Below are positions 1,888-51,837 of a DNA stretch of 64,000 nt, in pieces. Below the pieces are notes generated by a model, which was given only the letters and a program-made list of their open reading frames with translations, was not told where the DNA came from and did not search any database. The stretch is from Roseimicrobium sp. ORNL1 (GTDB lineage Bacteria; Verrucomicrobiota; Verrucomicrobiia; Verrucomicrobiales; Verrucomicrobiaceae): NCBI RefSeq assembly GCF_011044495.1, contig NZ_CP049143.1:4216001-4280000 (forward strand), given 5' to 3'. The position numbers were made by a program, and so were the translations under genes. Within the stretch, counting starts at the first letter, position 1. Every line of letters begins with the position of its first letter.

Positions 1888-2208
1888 GTGAACGAAGACC
1901 TGATCATCTTCATCAGGGCTGTATTGGGAACGGACCATCTCCCCTCCGAAGTGCGGAATGCCGCAACCTCGCTGGACTTCGTCTCACAGAGCACGTTTGA
2001 CCAGAGCTACCTGGACTTTCTGCAGGAACAAATCGAGGGCTCAAACGACACCGGGCGGACAGCGAAGATGAAGGAGCGGTTGACAGCGCTCACCCCCTAT
2101 CGCGACATGCGGACACTCGTTGGCTTCGTACCGACCCTCAACGGGCTCTGGTCAATCCGCGTGGATCCAGCGAGGGGAAAAGTCATCCACGGCGAGATGG
2201 CGCCTTGA
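1888..2208 (+). CDS. Small hypothetical protein (106 aa)
   Basis: Not recognised. The frame opens with GTG (1888), 72 bases after the BNR gene stops on the same strand, so the two could be co-transcribed. The product is a soluble, mildly acidic protein with no signal peptide or membrane segment. Its first 60 residues are predicted mostly helical, and a short hydrophobic stretch follows near residue 78 (LVGFVPTLNGLW). Residue composition looks like a real protein rather than a shadow frame. No ATG lies in frame upstream and no clear ribosome binding site is visible, so the start is uncertain. Confidence 0.55.
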   Translation: MNEDLIIFIRAVLGTDHLPSEVRNAATSLDFVSQSTFDQSYLDFLQEQIEGSNDTGRTAKMKERLTALTPYRDMRTLVGFVPTLNGLWSIRVDPARGKVIHGEMAP

Positions 2209-2276
2209 AACGGGCTCCGACCGACCTGCAATCCGAGAGCCCGCGAGAGAGGGACATGCAAACTGCTGAAGACCAG

Positions 2277-2942
2277 CTAGCGTTGCTGGTTGTTGTACCG
2301 ATCGCGGAACTTCTGCATGTCTCCGGCGCTCATCAGTTCGAAGGTGATGTTCACGATTTGGCCGTCTTCACGCTTCATTGTCACGCCCCAGGCCTCGTAG
2401 GCTTCGATCGTGCCACGAATCGTCCTGCCATCCTTCGAAGTGATGGTTTCAATGCCGCCTGCGACGGACTCAGGAGATGGCAGCCCAGGACTTCCAGGCT
2501 CTCCGCGCATTCCTTCAGCCGCTACAATCTGTTCCAGTTTGGAAATCAAGTCCTGTGGAACTTCGTGCTTCTTCGCCTCCTCCAGAAGTACCTGCTTCCA
2601 TCCTCGTTCGTCCGTCGCCATCCGGATGCCCAGGGGACCCAGCACCACCCAGAGAGGCAGGACGATCACTGCGAACAAGATGCCCAAGCAGCCACGAAAG
2701 AACGCCCCTTTCACCATGATGATGAGCGACGCGATGAGCAGCGCAAGGTACACCCCCCAGCCGAAGCTGCCCATCAGGGAAGCCAGTTGAGGAATGAACG
2801 GTGCCACGAGCCCCACCACCACCAGGAAAAGAGCCAGGCGTCTCACACCCTTCCCTTCCTCGTCCCCACCATAAGACCTCACAGACCTGTTCCGATATTT
2901 TCCAGTGTAACCCACAGATTCAACGCGTCGCATAGTTCGCAT
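2277..2942 (-). CDS. Hypothetical membrane protein (about 221 aa)
   Basis: Not assigned to a named family. A basic N-terminal stretch of about 35 residues is followed by three hydrophobic segments (RRLALFLVVVGLVAPFI, then a segment around WGVYLALLIASLIIMV, then GILFAVIVLPLWVVLG), so the N-terminal half is in the inner membrane. The C-terminal half is soluble and ends with a compact beta-rich region containing SKDGRTIRGTIEAYEAWGV and FELMSAGDMQKF, which may be a small SH3-like domain. The ATG at 2942 is preferred over the GTG at 2951, because an AGGG sits about 10 bases upstream of the ATG and almost touches the GTG. A long plus-strand frame overlaps the gene but has shadow-like composition. 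Confidence 0.7.
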   Translation of the reverse strand: MRTMRRVESVGYTGKYRNRSVRSYGGDEEGKGVRRLALFLVVVGLVAPFIPQLASLMGSFGWGVYLALLIASLIIMVKGAFFRGCLGILFAVIVLPLWVVLGPLGIRMATDERGWKQVLLEEAKKHEVPQDLISKLEQIVAAEGMRGEPGSPGLPSPESVAGGIETITSKDGRTIRGTIEAYEAWGVTMKREDGQIVNITFELMSAGDMQKFRDRYNNQQR

Positions 2943-3001
2943 TTTGTCCACACCCTTAACTTCGTCAATCCTCTTCCCCTAGGCACTTTCTTCATGGAAA
3001 G

Positions 3002-3076
3002 TGGAGCGGGTGACGCGATTCGAACGCGCGACATCTTCCTTGGCAAGGAAGTGCTCTACCACTGAGCTACACCCGC
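3002..3076 (-). tRNA. tRNA-Gly (anticodon GCC)
   Basis: The complement folds as a complete cloverleaf. The acceptor stem GCGGGTG pairs with CACCCGC, the D arm is GCTC/GAGC, and the anticodon stem CTTCC/GGAAG encloses loop TTGCCAA with anticodon GCC (plus-strand positions 3042-3044). The T arm carries TTCGAAT. Discriminator base T is followed by a genome-encoded CCA (plus-strand TGG at 3002-3004). Length is 72 nt plus CCA. The gene lies antisense in the gap upstream of trpC and ends the possibility that the trpC frame starts before about 3080. Confidence 0.97.
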
Positions 3077-3165
3077 ATTGTTTAGTGCGGACGGTGATAA
3101 TGGCGAATTACGTGAATGTTTCAAGTCGAAAGTCGCATTTTCTTTGTTATTCTTTCTCCCTCTCA

Positions 3166-3960
3166 ATGAACAAGCTCGACGAAATCATCGCCCACAAACA
3201 TACCGAAGTGCAGCGCCTTTTGCCCCGCATGGAGAAACTCCGTGCTGCCGCCGCTGGACGCAATGATTTCCGCTCCCTCTACGACGCCCTCCGCGCCGAC
3301 CCCGGACACATGGGCCTCATCGCCGAGGTGAAAAAGGCCTCCCCCTCCGCCGGGGTCATCCAGCCCGATTTCGACTACCTCACCATCGCCCGCACCTATG
3401 AAAAGGGCGGCGCCAATGCCATCTCCGTGCTCACGGATGAAAAGTACTTCCAAGGCAAGCTGGAGTATATGACCACCATCCGCAATGAGGTCAGCATCCC
3501 GGTGCTGCGGAAGGACTTCATCATCCACGAGGCCCAGATCTTCGAAGCCGCGGTCGCCGGGGCGGATGCCATCCTGCTCATCGTGGCCGCGCTGAAGCAG
3601 GACCAGCTCGAGAAGCTGTTGGATGTAGCCCACACCTTCCAGCTCGATGTGCTCATGGAAGTGCACGACCTCCCCGAGCTGGAGCGCGCCCTCGCGACCA
3701 ACGTACGCATCCTTGGCATCAACAATCGCAACCTGAAGTCCTTCACCGTCGACCTCGCCACCACCGAAGCTCTCGTGGAGGAAGTGCCGGATGACGTGGT
3801 GCTCGTCAGCGAAAGCGGCATCAAGTCCGTGGAAGACGCCCAACGCCTTGCCGACGCCGGCGCGGATGCACTCTTAGTGGGCGAAACCCTCATGCGCCAC
3901 GAGCACCCCATGGACATGGCCCGTGCGCTGCGCGTGGAGAAGGTGATTGTGGAGCGGTGA
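3166..3960 (+). CDS. trpC: Indole-3-glycerol phosphate synthase
   Basis: TrpC converts 1-(2-carboxyphenylamino)-1-deoxyribulose 5-phosphate to indole-3-glycerol phosphate in tryptophan biosynthesis, in the cytoplasm. The product is 264 residues, the usual length for a monofunctional (beta/alpha)8 enzyme. Family signatures are complete: AEVKKASPS with Lys56, VLTDEKYFQG, the RKDF motif with Lys116 (general acid in studied homologues), LMEVH with Glu165 (general base), GINNRNL, SESGI and the phosphate-binding LVGE. The frame is open further upstream but runs through the tRNA gene; the ATG at 3166 matches the expected N-terminus. No other trp gene is next to it, so the pathway is dispersed in this genome. 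Confidence 0.96.
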   Translation: MNKLDEIIAHKHTEVQRLLPRMEKLRAAAAGRNDFRSLYDALRADPGHMGLIAEVKKASPSAGVIQPDFDYLTIARTYEKGGANAISVLTDEKYFQGKLEYMTTIRNEVSIPVLRKDFIIHEAQIFEAAVAGADAILLIVAALKQDQLEKLLDVAHTFQLDVLMEVHDLPELERALATNVRILGINNRNLKSFTVDLATTEALVEEVPDDVVLVSESGIKSVEDAQRLADAGADALLVGETLMRHEHPMDMARALRVEKVIVER

Positions 3961-48334: not shown

Positions 48335-48398
48335 CTCAACCAGACGCTTTGCTCGCGGGCTGAGAAGGCCCGTGCATGGCTGGCACCCTCTCCCGCCC

Positions 48399-49100
48399 AT
48401 GTCGAAGAAATTACGCACTCCGACTGCCAGCCCGTCTCCACGACTCCCGGATGAAAGCGTGGCGAGAAGGCTTGTAATCAAGGGCCTGATGGGCACGGCC
48501 TTGGGAGGTGCTGCCGGCTACCTGGGATACCCATGGATTGCAGGGAGTCGCCGCGAGGAGTTCGCGGACACGATGCAACGGTTCTGGGACAGCATCAAAG
48601 AGCATCCCAGCATACGCCGGCGGCGGGAGATGGTGGAGCGGCAATCCCGGCCTGTGCCGGTGGTTCTTGATGCCCATGGTCGCGACTACGAGACCTTCCT
48701 CGCGACACTCAACCTGCGACACTTGACGCCGCTGGAGATCCTCCGCCCTCATTTCAAGGTACGCGGAACCGTGGCAAATTGCCTGCCGCCACGCGAGCTG
48801 TGGTCGAACATTGCCACCACCCTGCGAGTAGCGGATGAAATACGGCACCAACTGGGCGCGCGTCTGGACTCCATCGCGAGCGCCTATCGCTGCCCGGCCT
48901 ACAATGCTGCATGCCCTGGCGCAGCCAAGGCATCCTGTCACATGCAGAATCTGGCGCTCGATCTCGTGTATGATTGCGCACCGGATCAGGTGGTGAGAAC
49001 CGCCGAAGCACTCCGCGCAACAGGCTTCTTCAAGGGTGGCATCGGGCGTTATGCAGGATTCACGCATATCGATGCCCGCGGCAAGAATGCCGACTGGTGA
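48399..49100 (+). CDS. M15-type peptidase (D-Ala-D-Ala carboxypeptidase-like), copy 1
   Basis: A 233-residue exported protein. The N-terminus has a basic stretch then a hydrophobic segment (about 30-48) like a signal/anchor. Residues about 80-233 match the peptidase M15_3 family: HFKVRGTVANCLPPRELW, ASAYRCPAYNAAC, HMQNLALDLVYD, and GGIGRYAGFTHIDARGKNADW. His and Asp in HMQNLALDL and the His in FTHID form the zinc site expected of the fold. Such enzymes trim or cleave peptidoglycan. ATG at 48399 is preferred over the GTG at 48372. It is a paralogue of the next gene. Confidence 0.85.
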   Translation: MSKKLRTPTASPSPRLPDESVARRLVIKGLMGTALGGAAGYLGYPWIAGSRREEFADTMQRFWDSIKEHPSIRRRREMVERQSRPVPVVLDAHGRDYETFLATLNLRHLTPLEILRPHFKVRGTVANCLPPRELWSNIATTLRVADEIRHQLGARLDSIASAYRCPAYNAACPGAAKASCHMQNLALDLVYDCAPDQVVRTAEALRATGFFKGGIGRYAGFTHIDARGKNADW

Positions 49101-49350: not shown

Positions 49351-50031
49351 ATGGAACAGGAACAGCCCTCGCTACTGCATACACCGCGCACCTCCTCCCT
49401 GGCATCTCATGATATGCTGATCGGAAGGCGCCGCATGGTAAAATCGCTCTTTGGAGCACTCGCTGGTGGAACCCTTGCCTTTGGCCAGACCTCCTGGCTC
49501 TTCGGCAAGGACGAGACCGGCAGCAAGACCGAAACCAGCAAGACTGGTGAAGGCCATGAAGAAAAGGACAGCACTCCGACAGCCGCCGAGTTGGACAAGA
49601 TGGGCAAGGAATATGAGACGTTTCTCACGGGACTCGGCCTCATTTTCATCAAGCCCGCGGAGGTGCTCATGCCCCACTACAAGGTGCGCGGCAAGGTGAA
49701 GAACTCCCTCCCCCCCCGCGAACTCTGGACCAAGATGCCTCCGACCCTCAAGGTCGCGGACAAGCTCCGGGAAAAGCTCGGCGTGCCTCTGCAGGCCGTG
49801 ATCAGTGCCTACCGCAGCCCGGCTTACAATGCCGCCTGCACGGGCGCTGCCACCCACTCCCAGCACATGCTGAATGTGGCGCTGGACCTGCACTTCGACT
49901 GCGCACCTTCCAAGGTCGCTGAAGCTGCCGAAGCCCTCCGTTCCCAAGGCTACTTCAAGGGTGGCATTGGCCGCTACCCTGGTTTCACGCACATCGACAC
50001 CCGCGGCAAGAATGCCGACTGGCAGGGCTAA
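49351..50031 (+). CDS. M15-type peptidase (D-Ala-D-Ala carboxypeptidase-like), copy 2
   Basis: A 226-residue paralogue of the preceding gene, separated from it by 250 AT-rich bases that probably hold its own promoter. A hydrophobic region (about 30-48, MVKSLFGALAGGTLAFG) precedes a Lys/Glu/Thr-rich linker. The catalytic domain repeats the landmarks: HYKVRGKVKNSLPPRELW, SAYRSPAYNAAC, HSQHMLNVALDLHFDC and GGIGRYPGFTHIDTRG. Zinc ligands are placed as in copy 1. The final Gly follows NADWQ. The duplication suggests non-redundant roles in wall turnover. A good terminator follows. Confidence 0.86.
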   Translation: MEQEQPSLLHTPRTSSLASHDMLIGRRRMVKSLFGALAGGTLAFGQTSWLFGKDETGSKTETSKTGEGHEEKDSTPTAAELDKMGKEYETFLTGLGLIFIKPAEVLMPHYKVRGKVKNSLPPRELWTKMPPTLKVADKLREKLGVPLQAVISAYRSPAYNAACTGAATHSQHMLNVALDLHFDCAPSKVAEAAEALRSQGYFKGGIGRYPGFTHIDTRGKNADWQG

Positions 50032-50070
50032 AGCCCTCCAAAGAACCTACTGTTCCAGTGTCTCCCAAAG

Positions 50071-50105
50071 GAGCGGCGTCCCGCAAGACGGGACGTCGCT
50101 CTTTT
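50071..50105 (+). terminator. Rho-independent terminator of the second M15 peptidase gene
   Basis: A 13-bp stem (50071-50083 with 50089-50101, one G-T pair) closes loop CAAGA and is followed by TTTT (50102-50105). Confidence 0.88.
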
Positions 50106-50224
50106 CGTGCAAGCAAGTCAGCAGCTGGAGCCGCCGCTGCTTGGGGAAGACTTGTCCATAGGCGCCAGCTTAACAATGGTAAGGGTATCAGCCCGTTTCA
50201 ATTTGTGTGGCATGTGAAATTTGC

Positions 50225-50548
50225 TCCCGGAGGGAGCACGGATGGTAGCCGGTCGGTGGAGAACACCATGCCGCGTGAGCGGCAAGACTGCACGCGAAGC
50301 GCTAACCGTGAAGCCTGAGGAACGAAGGCAACCTCAGCGACCGCAACCACCGGATCTATGGCGATACCATGATGGCGTCCCGAAGGGTACGCCGGAAGGT
50401 GTACCAAGGTGACGCCACCGTCATCCACCCAGCGACCTTCCCCCGCCGTCCCATCCGGGACGGAGCATCTTTTTGACAACGTGATCCGGTGGTTGCGGTC
50501 GTCTAGACTCCCTCCACCGACCAGCTACCATCCGCTGTCCCTCCGGGA
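50225..50548 (+). ncRNA. Large multi-helix element (candidate structured RNA or palindromic repeat)
   Basis: The ends, 50225-50261 and 50512-50548, pair in 33 of 37 positions. A perfect 19-bp inner helix joins 50338-50356 to 50483-50501. On the plus strand several small hairpins sit between them: TGCCGC-GTGA-GCGGCA (50269-50284, GNRA loop), CTGAGG / CCTCAG (50315-50337), and GGTACGCC-GGAA-GGTGTACC (50386-50405, GNRA loop) enclosed by GGCGTC / GACGCC (50374-50416). CCGTCCC / GGGACGG (about 50446-50463) is followed by TTTTT at 50470-50474. No reading frame fits. It lies in the 567-base gap after the second M15 gene; on the other side is the minus-strand membrane protein gene. Family unknown; a MITE-like origin is possible. 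Confidence 0.55.
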
Positions 50549-50598
50549 CAAAACAGCCATGACAACTTAAGTTGTGGCCTATGGGAGGACTTGCCTTG

Positions 50599-51837
50599 CT
50601 ACATGCGGCGCTCTTCCAGCACTTCGAGGCCGGTGATCTTCCACGCATTGCCAATCGGCTCCAGTGTCAGTCGCGCGGTGTAACGATTGATGCGCTGGTG
50701 CAGGTGACCCCAGTGTCCTACGGTTCCCACAGCGGTCCACTGACCTTCGGCAATGAAACCATCCTCGTGCGGCAACACGCGATCGACGTTCACTGCCATG
50801 TCGGTGATCTTCACACGCGTGCCGTCCATGCCTTCCAGCGTGAGAGCTCGCACGGTCTGGAGATAGAGCTTTTCCAGAAGAGGACCGTGCACACTGCGCG
50901 CCAGCACGTCATAGATGGCGGACTCACTGCTTTGATCAAAGGCACGATAGGTATTGCGCAACAGGGGTTCGAGAATCTTGCCAGCCTCCTCTTGGGTGAG
51001 TGTCTTATCAGGCGAGAGCCTGGCAGACCAGGTGACGCCGGGTGCCACAAGCACTGCAACAACACAGCCGACCACGGCAAAAGCACCCGGTGCCACCACT
51101 CGCGCCATACCCCGCTTCGAGCTGCGCCATGCCCACACCAAGGCGACCACCAATACGGCTCCAGAGAGGAGCGCGGAGGCAGGCGCATTGATTCGGGAAG
51201 TTTCAACCGTGGGCACCTTCGACAGCGGAGGCGCGGGAGGCACACGGCCTCCGTTCTTCCATACTGAAGCAGGCGCAGAAGGCGTGAGCACCATGCCCGC
51301 CTCCATCGTGGGTCCATAAACCACGGTGACTGGCACGGCCTGCACCACGCCGCCAAATCCACGCCATTCCAACTCCACCTTGTCGAGGGTCGCAGGTGCG
51401 TGAAACTCCCAGGACAATCCCAACATGGTGTCCATGACCGCGACAGGCTCCTCCGGCTTGATCTGATCGCTATTCCCAGGCCTGCCTTTCAGCACCTCCG
51501 CGCCCTTGCGTTCCGGCTTCACTTCCGTGCCGTCGATACGCAACACGCACCACGATGCGGCCTCGTCACGTGCCTTCTCCAGCACCTGTTGCTTCACCGC
51601 ATCCGGCAGCACCAATTCTGTGCCGGGTGGTAGGCCCTGCAGGTTCAGCGCGGTGGGCATCCATACAAGGCACTCTACGCGGCAGGTATAGGGCTCCACA
51701 TACAGGTATACCTGTACATTGCTGCTGCCTGCACGCGCAGGTCCGGTGCCATCCCCATCAAAAGGATGGCCCATGACCGCGCGCCCAAACAGGCACAGCA
51801 GCAGGCAGAAGACGAGTCGTGCTCCGAGACGGATCAA
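50599..51837 (-). CDS. Exported membrane protein of unknown function
   Basis: Not recognised. A 412-residue protein with a signal peptide (about 1-22), a beta-rich exported domain with YLYVEPYTCRVECLVW (about 40-190), two membrane helices (about 218-236, ALLSGAVLVVALVWAW, and about 248-268, VAPGAFAVVGCVVAVLVAPG), and a C-terminal domain of about 135 residues (LTQEEAGKILEPLLRNTYRAFDQ, near residue 280, to the end). The start is TTG at 51837, overlapping the stop of the upstream oxidoreductase gene (TTGA), so its translation depends on that gene. Confidence 0.7.
   Translation of the reverse strand: MIRLGARLVFCLLLCLFGRAVMGHPFDGDGTGPARAGSSNVQVYLYVEPYTCRVECLVWMPTALNLQGLPPGTELVLPDAVKQQVLEKARDEAASWCVLRIDGTEVKPERKGAEVLKGRPGNSDQIKPEEPVAVMDTMLGLSWEFHAPATLDKVELEWRGFGGVVQAVPVTVVYGPTMEAGMVLTPSAPASVWKNGGRVPPAPPLSKVPTVETSRINAPASALLSGAVLVVALVWAWRSSKRGMARVVAPGAFAVVGCVVAVLVAPGVTWSARLSPDKTLTQEEAGKILEPLLRNTYRAFDQSSESAIYDVLARSVHGPLLEKLYLQTVRALTLEGMDGTRVKITDMAVNVDRVLPHEDGFIAEGQWTAVGTVGHWGHLHQRINRYTARLTLEPIGNAWKITGLEVLEERRM

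Follow-up and report, generated by a model that had tools for sequence, protein, structure and literature searches.

Introduction

In IS200/IS605 elements and TnpA-REP systems, single-stranded ends fold and the TnpA transposase cuts and rejoins them. Components relevant to the current study are already known. These include REPs, REPINs, REP dimers located within other palindromes, and the GTAG repeats of a verrucomicrobium, O. terrae (PMC3733652). REPINs and GTAG REPs with RAYT (TnpA-REP) proteins, and REPtrons, resemble the element described below in that dispersed, inverted pairs of GTAG-footed palindromes flank a Y1 HUH transposase gene (PMC3116915, PMC3733652, PMC2817692). IS200/IS605 elements (subclass 1.1) likewise encode a Y1 family protein (PF01797) and have hairpin-based ends. 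For TnpA-Y1 subclass 1.2, Quentin et al. (2018) enter 'no' in the REP column of their Table 1, and their conclusions describe the subclass as being without IS properties; it is reported from Cyanobacteria and Bacteroidetes (PMC6006769). Among titles and abstract beginnings of the open-access papers searched, REP-like ends with gene-less derivatives were not found for this subclass; ISfinder and subscription journals lay outside this search, and supplements such as Additional file 4 of PMC3733652 (a REPtron list) may hold a case.

Here we describe an element in a 64,000-nucleotide stretch of the genome of Roseimicrobium sp. ORNL1 (hereafter 'the window'). A first-pass annotation had proposed an unassigned noncoding RNA or RNA-based mobile element at this location. 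The structure is indeed real, dispersed and a mobile element, and MITEs had been listed in that annotation as look-alikes, but its RNA nature is unsupported and it looks like mobile DNA. Specifically, the unit at 50223-50549 is very probably a non-autonomous REPIN-like element, comprising two inverted composite ends of an IS200-like transposon (TnpA-Y1, subclass 1.2 type) without its transposase gene.

In contrast to RAYT REPINs, three hairpins (hp1, REP and hp2) make up each end of ~100 nt, the unit is ~250-330 nt long, and the foot also occurs as TTAG or other AG-ending forms. Whereas IS200/IS605 elements are described as lacking terminal inverted repeats (PMC2817692), the ends here are inverted copies. 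A further likeness is to the GTAG-15 dimers of Anabaena variabilis, in which REP dimers reside within long palindromes that are themselves repeated inverted elements (PMC3733652), although the sequences differ and in the current case one unit occurs in at least two wrappers.

Results and discussion

Anatomy of the window element

The element is located between converging ORFs that end at 50031 (plus strand) and 50599 (minus strand). Its features are as follows.

50156..50584, plus strand: whole outer element (wrapper A), whose terminal inverted repeats enclose the palindromic unit; the repeat pattern matches at 50156-50173 and 50567-50584, and the sister-species site is empty
50146..50154, plus strand: putative target-site repeat on the left, GAAGACTTG, separated by one base from the terminal repeat; imperfect, 8/9 identical to the right copy
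50585..50593, plus strand: candidate right target-site repeat GAGGACTTG, from sequence coordinates
50223..50549, either strand: palindromic gene-less (REPIN-like) unit; its ends match both ends of gene-bearing unit L189, and it matches 13 places in its own genome, some partially
50223..50237, plus strand: left outer hairpin hp1 GCTCCCGGAGGGAGC, with compensatory changes across 85 units
50245..50356, plus strand: left REP-like palindrome, stem CCGGTCGGTGG..CCACCGG, split by module M; foot GTAG at 50245-50248
50262..50331 (ends approximate), plus strand: module M, inserted in the loop of the left REP but dispersed as a repeat of its own; missing in M-less copies and standing alone in other genera
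50374..50393, plus strand: left inner hairpin hp2 GGCGTCCCGAAGGGTACGCC; GCGTCCCGGAGGGCACGC lies immediately 5' of the gene in L189
50394..50445, either strand: centre, where L189 has its transposase gene (window compared with L189)
50446..50463, minus strand: right inner hairpin hp2, equal to the terminator-like hairpin; L189 counterpart GCGTGCCCTCCGGGACGC lies 3' of the gene
50483..50528, minus strand: right REP-like palindrome in inverted orientation, with its foot at 50525-50528 (CTAC, which is GTAG on the minus strand)
50537..50549, minus strand: right outer hairpin hp1 GTCCCTCCGGGAC, from sequence coordinates

The unit reads hp1, the GTAG foot, the palindrome CCGGT(C)GGTGG..CCACCGG, a spacer, hp2 and the centre, and then the same parts reversed. 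As in a REPIN, an inverted pair of REPs and its spacer can form one hairpin. The pairing first described for this region was recovered exactly: 33/37 positions of 50225-50261 pair with 50512-50548, and the inner helix formed by 50338-50356 and 50483-50501 is a perfect match over 19 bp. All three hairpins named previously are likewise present, with TGCCGC-GTGA-GCGGCA inside 50268-50284, GGTACGCC-GGAA-GGTGTACC at 50386-50405 and CCGTCCC-ATCC-GGGACGG at 50446-50463. The limits originally given (50225-50548) are close, but the repeat unit spans 50223-50549 and is nested in the larger element at 50156-50584; the copies compared place the ends of the unit and of module M only approximately.

Adjacent to the element, a terminator-type hairpin followed by TCTTTT lies at 50073-50099, directly 3' of the plus-strand gene (read by eye; the scan did not list this hairpin). 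The neighbouring plus-strand ORFs upstream, at 48372-49100 and 49351-50031, are paralogous, with 68% DNA identity in cross-matches.

Dispersal of the unit and of module M

The window's genome is a single contig of 7.96 Mb, in which the unit is matched at 13 places, in some cases only partially (36 BLAST rows, grouped by hand). A pattern search yields ten exact GGTAGCCGGT..CCACCGGATC units, and the reversed control pattern yields zero. The first-pass annotation had recommended a search for copies in related genomes, and 25 of 68 genomes of the family, including the window's own, carry a match. A pattern that delimits the unit worked in 9/16 loci and gave 10 distinct places (13 rows, with three places read on both strands), nine of which measure 259-264 nt and one of which, L032, carries module M and measures 328 nt; seven loci, including that of the window, were left undelimited by this pattern.

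Module M (TGCCGC-GNNA-GCGGC..GCCTGAGGAACGAAGGCAA, ~70 nt), to which the GTGA hairpin of the window belongs, is missing from the unit copies L033, L034 and L100-L107, and is dispersed separately, as at L108, L109, L110, L074, L079 and L112. Of 10 distinct copies, 7 have a GNRA loop and 3 a GTCA loop, with the more diverged L080 copy left out. In a scan of a genome collection, from which the records nearest the window's genome were possibly left out, the module was found in 5 stretches, all from Verrucomicrobiaceae MAGs.

Other observations were made among these copies. At L109, module M appears to break a putative IS110-like transposase gene (recognised by sequence), and in genus g5, as judged by eye, its neighbours include further inverted repeats, TAGCCTGACC..ATTCATGAAAGT. 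At L091 (G013:C6:219000-224500, positions 1900-3400), five REP units are arranged in direct tandem over ~1.3 kb, with spacings near 356, 356, 355 and 193 nt. The REP loops of L033-L040 and the ends of L045 and L046 share a nearly identical loop GGGAGCCTCAGCGACCG in two REP families that differ in their stems, as if loops had been exchanged.

A related unit carries a transposase gene

In a sister species of the same genus (G061), locus L189 carries an ORF for a 148-amino-acid HUH/Y1 transposase between ends closely similar to those of the window unit. Upstream of the gene the order is GCTCCCGGAGGGAGC..GTAGCCGGTCGGTGG..CCACCGGATC..GCGTCCCGGAGGGCACGC, and the inverted set lies downstream, such that each end comprises a hairpin, a GTAG-footed palindrome and a hairpin, with the far side inverted. 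BLAST alignment of the window unit with L189 yields 97% identity over 39 nt, 76% over 63 nt and 83% over 69 nt. The window unit is therefore the gene-less counterpart of a gene-bearing one, with gene loss being the presumed direction of change.

A second example is L092 (also numbered L173; genome G013, genus g9), whose protein is 70% identical to that of L189 and whose gene also lies between such REPs. Both loci hold a cognate Y1 gene between copies of the same REP. These copies are inverted in L189, whereas in L092 the REPs nearest to the gene point the same way. Within the gene clade of L189, a simple REP pattern is present in 19/30 loci and stands on both sides in opposite orientation in 10/30, where it starts 94-178 nt upstream and 51-81 nt downstream of the gene; the simple pattern missed L189 itself because of GGTCGGTGG.

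No close cognate TnpA was found in the window's genome, where the nearest protein is 45% identical to that of L092 and 42% to that of L189. Therefore, the family of the window unit is probably an orphan in this genome, with a full copy kept in the sister species. A resident cognate enzyme was considered and dropped: no whole focal REP lies beside any of the 17 Y1_Tnp genes of this genome, where the REP motifs amount to isolated 10-mers with one mismatch. Five of these 17 genes have their own, different ends.

Outer elements and target sites

Wrapper A ends in 18-nt terminal repeats (CCATAGGCGCCAGCTTAA/TTAAGTTGTGGCCTATGG), and the near-repeats that flank it are 8/9 identical with one extra base. 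Locus L043 carries the same kind of terminal repeats together with a 9-bp direct repeat, GCAGGAGTG, that is exact, but its core is almost wholly deleted. These characteristics favour an alternative in which the element is wrapper A, a conventional MITE derived from a TIR (DDE-type) transposon, with the palindromic unit as mere filling. We consider this explanation very improbable. The unit also resides within different terminal repeats, which are TA-GAGCATTTT-like (L038-L040 and L107), and therefore rides in at least two outer elements. Moreover, several copies in G061 retain, by eye, at most remnants of wrapper A, L189 has neither wrapper, and no larger element was noticed in two genomes on the basis of these terminal repeats rather than of transposase genes. 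A MITE would account for the element at 50156-50584 but would leave the unit unexplained.

The first-pass annotation held that its RNA proposal would fall to a known transposon with precise target-site duplications and no transcript. The IS200-like ends largely supply such a transposon, although it goes unnamed in the RNA and protein libraries used and its target-site repeats are imprecise. At the orthologous intergenic site of G061, 56 nt separate the aligned blocks that are 540 nt apart in the window, with ~100 nt of this difference falling outside the element. The site is thus polymorphic for presence or absence of the element, which must have been gained or lost since the two species split. 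The loci compared revealed neither an exact insertion site nor an excision product. Near-complete deletions of the palindrome appear to have occurred at L042 and L043 between 4-nt direct repeats (AGCC and GGGA, respectively), visible as microhomology at the joint.

Folding on both strands

One argument for an RNA interpretation is the strong fold. The plus strand yields -186 kcal/mol compared with -119.6 (sd 5.1) for dinucleotide shuffles (z -13.1), and 0/100 shuffles are equally low. However, the minus strand reaches -199.6 (z -12.5, better than 100/100 shuffles), and the element folded as single-stranded DNA gives a z of -13.0. Folding is comparable in all three cases, a behaviour to be expected from any long inverted repeat. 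The GNRA loops on the plus strand of the window copy had been taken as a sign of selection at the RNA level, but the minus strand folds too and the type of loop is therefore no argument for RNA. In addition, comparison with other copies and with L189 reveals that neither GNRA hairpin is part of the conserved unit; the GGAA hairpin overlaps the conserved hairpin GCGTCCCGNAGGGNACGC in a different register and is missing from L189.

Compensatory changes had been suggested as a further check, and these are informative for one part of the unit only. Across 85 hp1+REP units, pairs in hp1 change on both sides (C-G/G-C/T-A and others), whereas the REP stem is almost invariant and hence uninformative on compensation. 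For the 14 hp1+REP pairs, 98.7% of cells are paired, whereas shuffles average 86.2% and never exceed 87.5%; two-sided change is evident in only 6/14 pairs, compared with 4.3 on average in shuffles. Compensation in hp1 fits RNA as much as it fits single-stranded DNA.

The Rfam scan that had been proposed was run on 45-56 kb of the window with E up to 5. No family matched the element, including HEARO, group II introns and other known structured RNAs with covariance models, and the four hits were at chance level and all away from it. Likewise, a scan of 49900-50700 revealed no sigma-70-like promoter, its sole item being the terminator-like hairpin. Together with the DNA transposase gene that such ends flank in L189, these findings make a structured noncoding RNA or RNA-based mobile element very improbable.

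Class of the transposase

The protein encoded at L189 is a Y1_Tnp protein (PF01797) with the motifs DHVH, WQ and Y---Q--HH (YVLNQEEHH). Its length of 148 amino acids, the DH[IV]H form of the histidine motif, WQ and Y---Q--HH agree with what is reported for TnpA-Y1 subclass 1.2 (PMC6006769). Proteins of this type measure 148-151 amino acids, carry DHxH and are placed beside IS200 TnpA in the tree. Subclass 1.1 is characterised by Y[IV]ENQ and no terminal inverted repeats, whereas L189 has YVLNQ and inverted ends. The flanked TnpA scores 61.5 with transpos_IS200 (cut-off 55) but 24.5 with REP_Tyr_transpos (NF047646), a model that gave 24.5 and 22.7 bits, far below its cut-off of 80. Among 117 homologues, Y---Q--HH is kept in 114, and L190, L192 and L277 differ at HH.

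In a midpoint-rooted tree of 33 proteins, in which 12/30 inner branches are weak and L060 has a long branch, the 19 sampled proteins of the L189 type form one clade (95/93) beside two partial IS200 transposases and apart from the 12 class-2 type proteins of the window's genome (99/98). By motifs and tree, rather than by a profile from the authors of the classification, this TnpA fits subclass 1.2.

The window's genome holds five genes of the subclass 1.2 type, with products of 150-151 amino acids (177 for L046 by its longest start), and 12 other Y1_Tnp genes with products of 209-304 amino acids. Four of the five shorter proteins pass the IS200 cut-off, the fifth scores 53.1 against 55, and none passes the REP_Tyr cut-off. 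Five of the 12 longer proteins were scanned; all five score higher with REP_Tyr than with IS200, and two pass the REP_Tyr cut-off.

A standard class 2 RAYT REPIN like those of Pseudomonas or E. coli shares the GTAG foot, the inverted doublet and the flanked Y1 transposase gene, and GTAG repeats are reported from O. terrae (PMC3733652), but it is a very improbable alternative, since this TnpA is not class 2, lacks Y---NP and scores as given above, and 0/12 class-2 type genes have a whole focal REP in their 1.5-kb flanks, where isolated one-mismatch 10-mers are the most that occurs.

Inverted flanks across 117 genes

Inverted flanks were also scored among homologous genes. Because 9/62 control loci in an initial REP-motif comparison carried REPs, and all 9 had been fetched by wrapper patterns, that control was unclean and was replaced by inverted-flank scoring, in which 350 nt upstream of each gene were compared with 350 nt downstream. 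The set consisted of five genes from the window's genome, 30 family loci, 81 of 99 places outside the family (the other 18 were left out by hand with their flanks unseen), one more family locus (L213) and two loci on Bacteroidota plasmids, the same two records having been returned by every plasmid search. Of these 119 loci, L210 and L218 had flanks that were too short, and the other 117 were scored.

Scores of at least 40, a cut-off chosen after the scores were known, were obtained for 87/117 genes, and scores of at least 60 for 65/117. The former include 5/5 genes from the window's genome, 24/30 from the family, 57/80 from the phylum set and 1/2 from Bacteroidota. The other 30/117 have no strong inverted flank (6/30 family, 23/80 phylum set and 1/2 Bacteroidota). 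Control scores are lower: 39 window ORFs have a median of 19 and a maximum of 25, with 0 at 40 or above, and 410 mismatched flank pairs have a median of 19, a 95th percentile of 30 and a maximum of 57, with 5 at 40 or above and 0 at 60 or above.

The arms mostly comprise hp1, a foot ending AGCC, a palindrome, a spacer and hp2 (by eye), and the palindromes vary by lineage. For example, CCAGCCCAGGG..CCCTGGG and relatives accompany four of the five subclass-1.2-type genes of the window's genome, and an arm in Persicobacter (CCCAAAGGGG..TTAGC-GATGGGTGTTAACCCATC) follows a similar plan. Some class-2 type genes also have inverted flanks, as reported for TIR-flanked ones; their starts are poorly placed and they were uncounted. 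The published 'no' for REPs records an observed absence, and inverted flanks at 87/117 genes can therefore be read as amending the description of subclass 1.2. Relative to that description (PMC6006769), the current examples come from Verrucomicrobiota, and they have composite ends in inverted arrangement as well as derivatives that lack the gene.

Units with and without the gene side by side

One TnpA gene in the window's genome (L048, at 4511683) has an end that is matched 41 times, mostly as inverted pairs. The 20 stretches fetched for this family comprise 15 pairs, the gene-bearing unit and four incomplete pairs (L312-L315) that were uncounted. At least 15 gene-less units of 251-263 bp accompany a unit with gene of 736 bp, and their anatomy is that described above for the window unit and L189. 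Because the gene-less copies are uniform in length, the data point to one derivative that propagated rather than to repeated deletion. The end of the L045 TnpA, by comparison, has almost no dispersed copies (4 rows).

By a score cut-off, the 16 units fall into 12 flank contexts, with five copies having a common flank type; a few flanks of further copies are alike over shorter stretches (by eye). Some copies share wrapper flanks, and hence may have moved along with a wrapper. The gene-less copies L303, L304, L306, L307 and L308 have common flanks with terminal repeats GTGTGGTGTCACGCAAGTTTGTT.., which constitute another outer element.

A possible mechanism and its implications

The biochemistry of IS200/IS605 and TnpA-REP provides a model for how such units might move (PMC8266576 and PMC2817692). 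By analogy, the ends, each a foot plus hairpins, would fold during a single-stranded DNA stage, for example at a replication fork. A TnpA dimer made in trans would recognise the folded ends, and its tyrosine would cut and rejoin DNA near the foot such that the unit is moved or copied. The unit has also travelled as part of a larger element, wrapper A, which brings terminal repeats of its own. Several observations weigh against the favoured reading: the 30/117 genes with no strong inverted flank, the like-oriented REPs at L092, the scarcity of dispersed L045 ends, the missing cognate TnpA in the window's genome, the lack of an exact insertion site or excision product among the loci, the copies that share wrapper flanks, and the small excess of two-sided changes.

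These findings look like a REP/REPIN-like system for a subclass that was thought to be without one. We somewhat favour the broader hypothesis that TnpA-Y1 subclass 1.2 represents a third kind of single-stranded DNA transposition system beside IS200/IS605 and RAYT/REP. The substrate of such a system would be a composite end of three hairpins (hp1, then a foot ending in AG with the palindrome, then hp2) that flanks the gene in inverted orientation, and the system would yield gene-less derivatives of fixed size that can also ride in TIR elements. It would account for many dispersed palindromes (CCAGCCCAGGG.., GTAGCCGGTGGT..) in Verrucomicrobiota and perhaps in Bacteroidota.

Inverted mobile ends can be mistaken for RNA, as this pair outfolded all 100 shuffles on either strand. 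An HUH endonuclease subclass published as being without REPs or IS behaviour gains a concrete candidate for its DNA substrate, and the presence of gene-bearing and gene-less units in one genome makes the function of subclass 1.2 directly testable.
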